Below, piece after piece: positions 7,702-10,014 of a DNA stretch of 39,728 bases. Source of the DNA: Terribacillus halophilus (GTDB lineage: Bacteria > Bacillota > Bacilli > Bacillales > Amphibacillaceae); assembly GCF_900162685.1 (NCBI RefSeq), contig NZ_LT727828.1:1759924-1799651 (forward strand), given 5' to 3'. Numbering within the stretch: the stretch's first letter is position 1; the number at the start of each line of letters is the position of its first letter. A program made the translations under genes and the position numbers. Below the pieces are notes generated by a model that made no database searches, was not told the origin of the DNA, and saw nothing but the letters and a program-made list of their open reading frames with translations.

Positions 7702-8850
7702 ATGAAAATTGTTGTAGCTGGTGGAGATGGTTTCTGCGGTTGGCCAACGGCACTATATCTGTCAAAGCAAGGTCATGAAGTAGCAATCGTCGATAACTTA
7801 GTAAGACGTAAGTATGATGAAGAATTACGCTCCAATTCCGTCACACCAATTTATTCTTTGGAAGAGCGGGTAGCCAAGTGGAAAGAGAAAACGGGTAAGG
7901 AAATCAAAACATACATAGGCGACTTAAATCACTATGATTTCCTTAGCGAAGTATTTCGTCAAACAGAGCCTGATGCATTTGTACACTTTGCGGAACAGCG
8001 CTCGGCACCTTACAGCATGATTGACCGGGAACACGCGGTTTACACGCAGCAGAATAATGTGATTGGAAACTTGAATGTACTTTACGCAATCAAGGAATTC
8101 GCTCCATCTTGTCATTTAATCAAGCTTGGTACAATGGGAGAATACGGAACACCGAATATCGATATCGAAGAAGGTTATATCGAGATAGAACATAAAGGCA
8201 GAAAGGACAAACTGCCATTCCCGAAACAGCCAGGTTCTTTCTATCACTTGTCTAAAGTGCATGACAGTCATAATATCATGCTTGCTTGTAAAATCTGGGG
8301 CATACGTGCGACAGACTTAAACCAAGGCGTGGTATATGGTCTTCACACAGAAGAAACGAAACTAGACCCAGTTCTGGCTAACCGTTTCGATTATGACGGC
8401 GTATTCGGTACAGCATTAAATCGATTCCTTATTCAAGCGGCAACCGGCCACGACATTACTGTGTACGGCAGCGGCGGTCAGACGCGCGGCTTCTTAAATA
8501 TTACAGACACGATTCGCTGTGTAGAGATTGCTGCTGAGAATCCGGCAGATGCAGGCGAATTCCGGGTATTTAACCAGTTCACAGAGTCATTTTCTGTACA
8601 GGAACTTGCAGAGAAAGTACAGAAAGTGAGCCAGGAGAAAGGTCTTGATCCACAGATCACATCAATTGAGAATCCTAGAGTAGAAGCGGAGGAGCATTAT
8701 TACAATGCTGTTAACACCCGTCTTCGTGACCTTGGACTAGAGCCGAATCTCCTTACTGACGACGTGCTGCACGCTATTCTGGAGACGGCGATTGAACATA
8801 AGGATCGTGTTATTAAAGAAAATGTACTTCCGACAGTTACGTGGAAATAG
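7702..8850 (+). CDS. sqdB: UDP-sulfoquinovose synthase SqdB
   Basis: 382 residues, an extended short-chain dehydrogenase/epimerase. It makes UDP-sulfoquinovose from UDP-glucose and sulfite, the head-group donor for sulfoquinovosyl diacylglycerol (SQDG). The NAD motif GGDGFCGW (residues 7-14), DNLVRR, the [12 protein letters not shown] block, [19 protein letters not shown] (catalytic Thr144, Met145, Glu147), the YxxxK pair Tyr181/Lys185, [11 protein letters not shown] and [12 protein letters not shown] match plant SQD1 and bacterial SqdB nearly word for word, far closer than to ordinary sugar epimerases. Strong site AGGAGGATG before the ATG. The sqdX-like gene follows with its ribosome binding site overlapping this stop codon, so the pair is a translationally linked operon. 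Confidence 0.95.
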
Positions 8851-8859
8851 GAGCAGACG

Positions 8860-10014
8860 GTGAAAATCGTTATTATTACGGAAACATTTCTGCCATCGAC
8901 TGATGGTGTCGTCACGCGGCTAACCGAAGCGATTAAATATCTCTGCAGCCAGAAGCATGAAGTCGTCGTTATCGCTCCGGATCTCGGGGTAAAGGAATAT
9001 CAAGGTGCACTCGTTGAGGGGATTGGGACGGTAACTATGCCATTTTACCGATCTAAAAAGTTCTCCTTGCCGACAAGGAAGATAAAGCCTTTGCTGGAGA
9101 AACACCAGCCTGACCTTGTCCATGTGGCGAACCCAGCTTTAGTCGGCGTAGCAGGAATCCATTATGCGAAGAAAATGGGCTTGCCGCTTATGGCGTCCTA
9201 TCACACGCATATACCGAAATATTTGGACTATTACAAGCTCTATAAACCGTTAAAACCATTATTCTGGTGGCATTTCCGCAGACTTCATAACGCTGCTGAT
9301 TTGAATCTTTGTACGTCACAAGCAATTAAGCAGGAATTAGATGAACAAGGATTCGAGCGGATGCACGTCTTGCGCAGAGGTGTGGATGTAGAGAAACGGC
9401 ATCCGGCTTATTATTCAGAGAATATGCGGGAACGTTTGCTGCAAAGTGCAACAGACAAGAAACTGCTCATCTTTGTGGGCCGATTAGCCATAGAAAAGGA
9501 AATCCATAAGATTCGGCCTTTATTGGATGAAAGAGATGACTTAGCATTAGCGATTATCGGAGACGGGCCTGCCCGTAAAGAGCTAGAAAAGGTATTCGAA
9601 GGGACACATACGCTGTTCACAGGTTTCCTTCATGGAGAGGAATTGTCCCAAGCGTTTGCTTCAGCGGATGCCTTTGTTTTTCCATCGATTACCGAGACAC
9701 TCGGACTCGTAATATTAGAAGCGATGGCTTCCGGTATACCCGTTATCGCAGCGAAAAGCGGTCCAACCTTGGAGCAAATTGAAGAAGGGAAGACAGGATT
9801 CCTTTTTGAGAATGAAAATGTGTCGAGCATGAGCAAGGCTGTCGAACAGCTCGATCAACAGAAATTAGTAGCGGAAATGAAACAGAATGTGCGACTAGAG
9901 GCAGAAAACCATTCCTGGACAAATGCTTCCAGAGAAATGTTTGACTACTATTTAGCGACAATGCATGCAAAATCGCCGGTATATCAGGCCGTGCAAAACC
10001 CGAGCTCCCACTGA
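8860..10014 (+). CDS. sqdX: GT4 glycosyltransferase, sulfoquinovosyltransferase SqdX/SQD2-like
   Basis: 384 residues, two-domain GT-B fold. N-terminal signature ITETFLPSTDGVVTRL and the acceptor-side YHTHIPKYLDYY, and the C-terminal nucleotide-binding part VGRLAIEKE and SITETLGLVILEAMASGIPVIA (EX7E motif). The start resembles cyanobacterial SqdX and plant SQD2, which move sulfoquinovose from UDP-sulfoquinovose to diacylglycerol at the membrane; by sequence alone related GT4 enzymes (mannosyl or glucosyl transfer to diacylglycerol) are similar, but the operon with sqdB makes SQDG synthesis the best reading. GTG start; AGGAG overlaps the sqdB stop. In the donor region VGRLAIEKEI is followed by a short HKIRPLLDERDD segment, slightly shorter than usual there. 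A terminator overlaps its last codons. Confidence 0.88.
   Translation: MKIVIITETFLPSTDGVVTRLTEAIKYLCSQKHEVVVIAPDLGVKEYQGALVEGIGTVTMPFYRSKKFSLPTRKIKPLLEKHQPDLVHVANPALVGVAGIHYAKKMGLPLMASYHTHIPKYLDYYKLYKPLKPLFWWHFRRLHNAADLNLCTSQAIKQELDEQGFERMHVLRRGVDVEKRHPAYYSENMRERLLQSATDKKLLIFVGRLAIEKEIHKIRPLLDERDDLALAIIGDGPARKELEKVFEGTHTLFTGFLHGEELSQAFASADAFVFPSITETLGLVILEAMASGIPVIAAKSGPTLEQIEEGKTGFLFENENVSSMSKAVEQLDQQKLVAEMKQNVRLEAENHSWTNASREMFDYYLATMHAKSPVYQAVQNPSSH

Follow-up and report, generated by a model that had tools for sequence, protein, structure and literature searches.

A stretch of 39,728 nucleotides from Terribacillus halophilus (contig NZ_LT727828.1, positions 1,759,924 to 1,799,651 of the forward strand; hereafter the window) carries two adjacent genes, sqdB and sqdX, which we interpret as a bicistronic operon for the sulfolipid sulfoquinovosyl diacylglycerol (SQDG), with a probability of about 0.88. 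The initial annotation had proposed such an operon in a Gram-positive organism, and homology, motif, operon structure and phylogeny support it. What the sequences establish is which genes these are, that the active-site motif is kept, how the operon is built and conserved, where SqdB falls in the tree, and that the genus genomes examined lack the genes leading from sulfate to sulfite. We infer the reactions, SQDG as the product and a role for the lipid in place of phosphatidylglycerol at low phosphate. SqdB, an NAD-dependent short-chain dehydrogenase/reductase, would convert UDP-glucose and sulfite into UDP-sulfoquinovose; SqdX, whose translation starts next to the sqdB stop, would then transfer sulfoquinovose to diacylglycerol. 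The resulting anionic, phosphorus-free membrane lipid would replace phosphatidylglycerol when phosphate is short. More tentatively, the sulfite may not be made from sulfate: imported or reduced sulfur could supply it, whether rhodaneses act on thiosulfate, a dioxygenase acts on persulfides or sulfite itself is taken up; and the pair may belong to the PhoPR regulon.

By homology and motif, the product of sqdB (7702–8850, plus strand, ATG start, 382 amino acids) is a UDP-sulfoquinovose synthase. Its best solved relative is a plant enzyme, Arabidopsis SQD1 (1qrr, also 1i24), which matches over the full length (residues 2–382, E 6e-174) at 65% identity and with the catalytic residues aligned. The complete SQD1 active-site set described in the initial annotation was found where it had been placed: T144, M145, E147, Y181, K185 and a 12-residue block at 98–109 are all present. 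The alignment to 1qrr is shifted by one, such that T144, Y181 and K185 correspond to chain positions 145, 182 and 186. Furthermore, T144-M145-G146 and Y181-x3-K185 match the signature [ST]MGxnYx3K tabulated for SQD1 and Agl3 (PMC8987622, Table 1).

The second gene, sqdX (8860–10014, plus strand, GTG start, 384 amino acids), encodes a GT4 glycosyltransferase, the proposed SQDG synthase according to Pfam and synteny. Two Pfam domains, Glyco_transf_4 (PF13439) and Glycos_transf_1 (PF00534), span its full length. The protein is 42–49% identical, over most of its length, to the GT4 product encoded downstream of sqdB in cyanobacterial loci (SqdX), and thus nearer to it than to the GT4 proteins of its own genome, five of which match in parts at 27–33% identity. 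In a contig search for sqdB loci, downstream partners were compared in the best 80 of 592 candidates. Most of these come from cyanobacteria or Acidobacteria; Chloroflexi, Alicyclobacillaceae and some other groups contribute a few, and no close relative is among them. An SqdX homologue (41–49% identity) starts at most 1.4 kb downstream of sqdB in 42 of these 80 loci, mostly cyanobacterial, and follows sqdB immediately in two Alicyclobacillus loci. In the remaining 38 no SqdX homologue was seen at that place within the stretch retrieved, some of the stretches being short; two of them (L099 and L127) carry one on the opposite strand, 1.4–2.5 kb downstream. In the SqdX tree, the own-genome paralogues, set as outgroup, fall on one side of a branch (96); the tree has short rows and long branches. 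Cyanobacteria, Acidobacteria and Alicyclobacillus are separate from the family of the window (Amphibacillaceae), whose rows do not form one clade.

The two genes are separated by 9 bases. The sqdB stop codon TAG (8848–8850) is overlapped by the sqdX Shine-Dalgarno sequence AGGAG (8849–8853), which precedes the GTG start (the whole junction covering 8848–8862 on the plus strand). The initial annotation had the GT4 gene overlapping sqdB at the ribosome binding site; this holds for the Shine-Dalgarno sequence and the stop codon, while the genes themselves do not overlap. In all ten loci of the genus, the sqdX start follows the last sqdB codon at the same distance, and the two cistrons are probably coupled. 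The Shine-Dalgarno sequence of sqdB itself, AGGAGG (7689–7694, plus strand), is likewise kept in 10/10 loci of the genus. Further upstream, a promoter scan gave a sigma-70-like promoter, TTTTCA-17-TATAAT (10/12 positions, 7626–7654, plus strand), whose TATAAT is kept in the genus alignment; taken alone this site is weak, because the region holds three promoter-like sites and 5.8 are expected in shuffled sequences. At the other end, a hairpin spans the sqdX stop (9990–10034, plus strand, arms GCAAAACCCG and CGGGTTTTTGC) and is likely an intrinsic terminator. It folds at -24.4 kcal/mol (z -4.0, equalled by 0 of 200 shuffles) and is missing from the output of the terminator scan, which accepts loops of 3–8 only.

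Some points weigh against a sulfolipid operon. Both the lipid and the enzyme activity are predictions from sequence. SqdB scores 501.8 bits with the NCBIfam model NF041015, under the naming cut-off of 575. As controls, Synechococcus elongatus and Sulfolobus acidocaldarius both match this model and one of the two passes, so the cut-off shuts out a known type. Sequence does not reveal which acceptor SqdX uses, and the best NCBIfam model for this protein is N-acetylglucosaminyl-phosphatidylglycerol (GlcN-PG) synthase, at 168.7 bits far under the cut-off of 480. That model, as well as a divergence faster for SqdX (54–69% identity across loci L013–L032) than for SqdB (79–86%), could be taken to mean that UDP-sulfoquinovose is made and then passed to an acceptor other than diacylglycerol. 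This might be phosphatidylglycerol, a polymer of the cell wall or some glycan; the N-glycans of Sulfolobus acidocaldarius are reported to contain sulfoquinovose (PMC9594981, PMC8987622). We consider this unlikely. Four partner GT4 proteins from sqdB loci, two cyanobacterial and two from Alicyclobacillus, reach 144.6–164.3 bits with the same model, again far under 480; the two cyanobacterial ones (154 and 164 bits) score much as SqdX does, and an identification of SqdX as GlcN-PG synthase is not favoured for that reason. In addition, no glycan cluster lies beside the pair among the scanned open reading frames (ORFs), the spoVB gene at 17912 being 8 kb off and a sporulation gene, and sulfolipids are reported from Bacillus coahuilensis, which carries this pair of genes too (PMC4744853). 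Because of its likeness to cyanobacterial and Alicyclobacillus proteins, the shared model and the weakness of its own-genome paralogues, we identify the GT4 gene at 8860–10014 by sequence as the SqdX of the operon, presumably acting on diacylglycerol.

The sulfolipid genes are widespread among the relatives of this organism. All ten genomes examined from the genus carry sqdB at 96–100% identity. Across the family, 60 of 159 genomes have an sqdB with at least 74% identity; one of these (G062, locus L048) matches in two pieces in two frames, at 83 and 71% identity. Either the sqdB at L048 is broken or its split stems from an error of assembly. Among the new findings are this occurrence of sqdB in the genus and the family and the constant presence of sqdX beside it: sqdX stands next to sqdB in 41/41 family loci of the main type retrieved with flanks (10 from the genus, 31 from other genera), the SqdX match of L049 spanning residues 1–317 only. 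In an even draw from the phylum, 7 of 398 genomes, the own genome included, match NF041015 at 1e-40.

A second SqdB type, at 46–49% identity, occurs in 16 of the 159 family genomes, and two genomes have both types. At seven loci (L033–L037, L046 and L047) it shows the motifs TMGVYGY and YHMTK, like the enzymes of Sinorhizobium meliloti pSymB and Marinovum. These latter proteins (L179, L181) belong to the same enzyme family as the SqdB of the window, with 44–45% identity and the same TMGVYGY/YHMTK motifs; there sqdB is followed by a gene annotated as glycosyl transferase or Glycogenin-1. No SqdX homologue above 100 bits was found in six of the seven second-type loci fetched, and in L036 an SqdX homologue at 50% identity adjoins. 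Plasmid matches to SqdB amount to 22 records, all below 60% identity; in 21 of them a single stretch matches 80% or more of the query. Spread by phages was rejected, as the phage collection gave no sqdB match at 1e-30.

The same gene order is found in many cyanobacteria, for example in S. elongatus PCC 7942 (Synpcc7942_0578/0579, PMC7401256), with SqdB 62–67% and SqdX 42–49% identical to the proteins of the window. Whereas 9 bases separate the genes here, the distance in cyanobacterial loci is about 70–780 bases, with one of 1.3 kb. Arabidopsis uses SQD2 in place of SqdX (PMC7401256). The shared pair and order and the level of SqdB identity would be expected if the operon had recently been transferred from a cyanobacterium. 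The sqd genes of B. coahuilensis have reportedly been taken to be of cyanobacterial origin. For the window we judge such a recent gift extremely improbable. The initial annotation had asked whether SqdB groups with cyanobacteria or Firmicutes, and the tree places it in a clade of Bacillota rather than on a branch within the cyanobacteria. In this tree of 50 rows (L055, L056, L074, six second-type rows and L178–L182, that is 14 rows of an earlier 64, having been left out), the family of the window forms one clade with two other Bacillota and three Alicyclobacillaceae (100/99). A second clade (99/94) comprises cyanobacteria, the plant enzyme, two Acidobacteria and one metagenome-assembled genome of Desulfatirhabdium; cyanobacterial SqdB is thus separate from that of the window. 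If the family is constrained to group with the cyanobacterial clade, 109.6 log units are lost and the approximately unbiased (AU) test rejects the arrangement (p = 4e-6), as it does when the two other Bacillota are added to the constraint (p = 0.021). The earlier quick tree of 64 rows gave the same placement, with long branches flagged. The presence of sqdB in 10/10 genomes of the genus also argues against a recent gift from cyanobacteria, which the AU test rejects for the sampled sequences. According to these trees SqdB belongs to its own Bacillota clade, Alicyclobacillus included; the genes may still have passed from one phylum to the other long ago, whichever was the donor.

Within this clade, the Alicyclobacillus loci (L120, L128) show the same tight arrangement of sqdB and a GT4 gene; their SqdB is 70% identical, SqdX only about 46%. 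SQDG is known from Alicyclobacillus acidocaldarius. Our search of the open-access literature returned no pertinent paper on SQDG in Alicyclobacillus and none on sqdB and sulfoquinovosyl compounds in Firmicutes, and sulfoglycolipid reports for genera of the window's family were absent among the matches listed. The closest precedent is B. coahuilensis, which has sqd1 and sqdX and is reported to contain membrane sulfolipids (as ‘data not shown’), with a proposed role at low phosphate (PMC4744853); the report is repeated in two reviews (PMC9594981, PMC12890257). The two genes are the same as here, in another genus. Since both the gene pair and the lipids were described for that species, the pair of the window is ordinary in kind. 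The proposal of a sulfolipid operon in the initial annotation is supported, yet its view that the lipid is seldom discussed for Bacillaceae was too strong, the genes and sulfolipids of B. coahuilensis being in print (PMC4744853).

UDP-sulfoquinovose synthase requires sulfite, and the genes that lead from sulfate to sulfite are missing from the genomes of the genus examined. ATP-sulfurylase (PF01747) was found in 0/10 genomes (control matches in 5 of 14 named genomes, including B. subtilis), phosphoadenylyl/adenylyl sulfate (PAPS/APS) reductase (CysH, PF01507) in 0/10 (control 14/14, including B. subtilis) and an intact sulfite reductase (PF01077) in 0/10 (control 11/14, including B. subtilis). 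One of the ten genomes (G009, locus L143) does match PF01077, with an internal TAG stop; this lone sulfite/nitrite-reductase domain may be left over from a sulfate route that the lineage has lost. The available part of the B. coahuilensis account (PMC4744853) is silent on such a lack. In the open-access literature we found no discussion of the loss of the sulfate route beside a kept SqdB, in searches not aimed exactly at this question.

Across the 159 family genomes, sqdB and a strong CysH match occur together in 37, sqdB alone in 23, CysH alone in 39 and neither in 60. The two are positively associated (Fisher 0.009; 7e-5 without the genus of the window; relatedness being ignored in both), and the genus goes against this family-wide association. 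As the 23 sqdB genomes lacking a strong CysH match include 13 from other genera in addition to the ten of the genus, the SqdB pathway can apparently be kept without a sulfate route.

The missing route nevertheless adds to the points against the sulfolipid reading. When sulfite is lacking, UDP-Glc-5,6-ene is the reported product of the synthase (PMC8987622), so that little SQDG might be made unless another source of sulfite exists. In its strongest form this argument would make SqdB a remnant or an alternative enzyme, acting mainly as a 5,6-dehydratase or with another nucleophile, whose product is not sulfoquinovose; the absence of the sulfate route from the genus and the dehydratase activity reported without sulfite (PMC8987622) are what such an enzyme would lead one to expect. 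We regard it as very improbable, given that SqdB keeps 96–99% identity and the TMGEYG and YHLSK motifs throughout the genus, that the state is common (23 of 60 sqdB genomes in the family are without a strong CysH match) and that rhodanese and persulfide-dioxygenase-like genes could supply sulfite.

Two other sulfite sources were rejected: cysteine dioxygenase is found in 0/10 genus genomes, and the alkanesulfonate monooxygenase SsuD gives weaker matches in 10/10, above the curated cut-off in 0/10, with B. subtilis again matching as a control. In the own genome, rhodanese domains give 11 matches. About 37 kb past the end of the window (G000:C13, ~1.836–1.842 Mb; L149, L156) lies a sulfane-sulfur cluster which encodes a fusion of a rhodanese and a metallo-beta-lactamase (MBL) domain, a TusA-rhodanese fusion, DsrE-like proteins and a CsoR-type repressor. 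The rhodanese-MBL fusion (L156:688–1893) combines PF00753 and PF00581 in one protein and matches 3tp9, BpPRF (5ve3) and ETHE1 (4chl) in sequence. By its domains and these PDB matches it is a candidate persulfide dioxygenase of the Blh-CstB kind; with the NCBIfam model of Blh (NF040641) it scores 45.1 bits against a cut-off of 625, and we do not file it as Blh. In other bacteria, Blh is reported to yield sulfite in sulfurtransferase and dioxygenase reactions (PMC5823870). By analogy, we infer that a persulfide-dioxygenase-like enzyme could feed SqdB here.

Control by phosphate was considered for the region before sqdB. The PhoP-box consensus is TT(A/C/T)A(C/T)A. In the repeat unit as described, seven bases are well conserved and four less so (PMC4415409). 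Upstream regions were scanned for the consensus hexamer at a fixed period and compared with shuffles. Before sqdB, the candidate PhoP-box-like direct repeats TTAATG, TTTACA, TCAATT and TTAACA follow each other with a period of 11 bases (7578–7616, plus strand, p 0.01 against shuffles). In the family, three boxes at period 11 reach p<0.05 in 16 of 59 upstream regions, and the nine other periods do so in 0–6 of 59; the 16 regions are not independent, because five come from the genus of the window. With two boxes, period 11 stands out in the genus-averaged excess (0.55 +/- 0.17, at most 0.27 elsewhere). Compared with the other genes of the same loci, three boxes precede sqdB in 3 of 11 cases and the others in 2 of 89 (Fisher 0.009; 0.017 with four boxes), the sqdB of L049 being left out as its upstream region is too short. 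Several results speak against Pho control. At period 11, 43 of the 59 regions show nothing; the genus-averaged excess for three boxes (0.34 +/- 0.25) is not above that of period 13 (0.38 +/- 0.15); and with two boxes the comparison with other genes gives Fisher 0.30. Furthermore, in phosphate-starved S. elongatus sqdB and sqdX are reported to go down while SQDG goes up (PMC7401256). The repeats are suggestive of Pho control of sqdB, on modest evidence.

Upstream of sqdB, the window holds two tandem genes for FAD-dependent (DAO) oxidoreductases with a Rieske domain, about 50% identical. The nearer one (6046–7581, plus strand; Pfam DAO and Rieske) has the Rieske domain at its C-terminus and is YhfW-like by domain description. 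B. subtilis YhfW is described as an FAD-linked oxidoreductase that carries a Rieske domain at its C-terminus and whose function is unknown (PMC7317962); the domain make-up is the same. The second gene (4078–5643, plus strand; Pfam DAO and Rieske) encodes a paralogue which is 49–50% identical to the orthologues of the 6046–7581 protein in L001–L010. Of the 41 loci, 25 (from 8 of 13 genera) have a DAO-Rieske homologue upstream of sqdB on the same strand. A neighbour shared so widely thereby gains a first hint at a function. Outside the genus, the gene is present in 14 of 20 loci seen with a flank of 1.5 kb only and in 1 of 11 others with longer stretches; L049 ends about 100 bases upstream of sqdB. 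In L044 an ORF, by eye an alpha/beta hydrolase, stands between the DAO-Rieske gene and sqdB, and a comparable gap, some 900–960 bases long, occurs in five further loci. No pattern was seen by eye in which the DAO-Rieske gene substitutes for a missing CysH. The initial annotation had pointed to nearby ferredoxin and Rieske proteins. Pfam bears out the Rieske proteins, while no ferredoxin family was matched among the 40 window ORFs scanned (39 of the 71 of at least 80 amino acids, plus one of 73).

Elsewhere in the window, a match to the Bacillus small RNA ncr1575 (Rfam RF02452, 125.4 bits) lies at 14172–14373 on the minus strand, directly upstream of the gene for an ABC ATPase (12507–14141). 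SpoVB (17912–19447) scores 384.7 bits against a curated cut-off of 372.3, which fits a spore-forming lineage.

The spread of the pair makes the sulfolipid genes a settled trait in a large group of Bacillota, beyond the curiosity of one oligotrophic species. What stands out is that the genus has lost its sulfate route throughout and strictly keeps an enzyme that uses sulfite, which makes the origin of sulfite for a bacterial SqdB directly testable. A doubtful but possible scheme is that of a genus-wide sulfolipid pathway independent of sulfate assimilation, in which sulfite would come from sulfane sulfur (thiosulfate via rhodaneses, persulfide via the rhodanese-MBL dioxygenase), the FAD-Rieske protein would possibly take part in sulfur oxidation and PhoPR would exert control. 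If this scheme is true, the detoxification of sulfide and thiosulfate would have been turned into the making of a membrane lipid.

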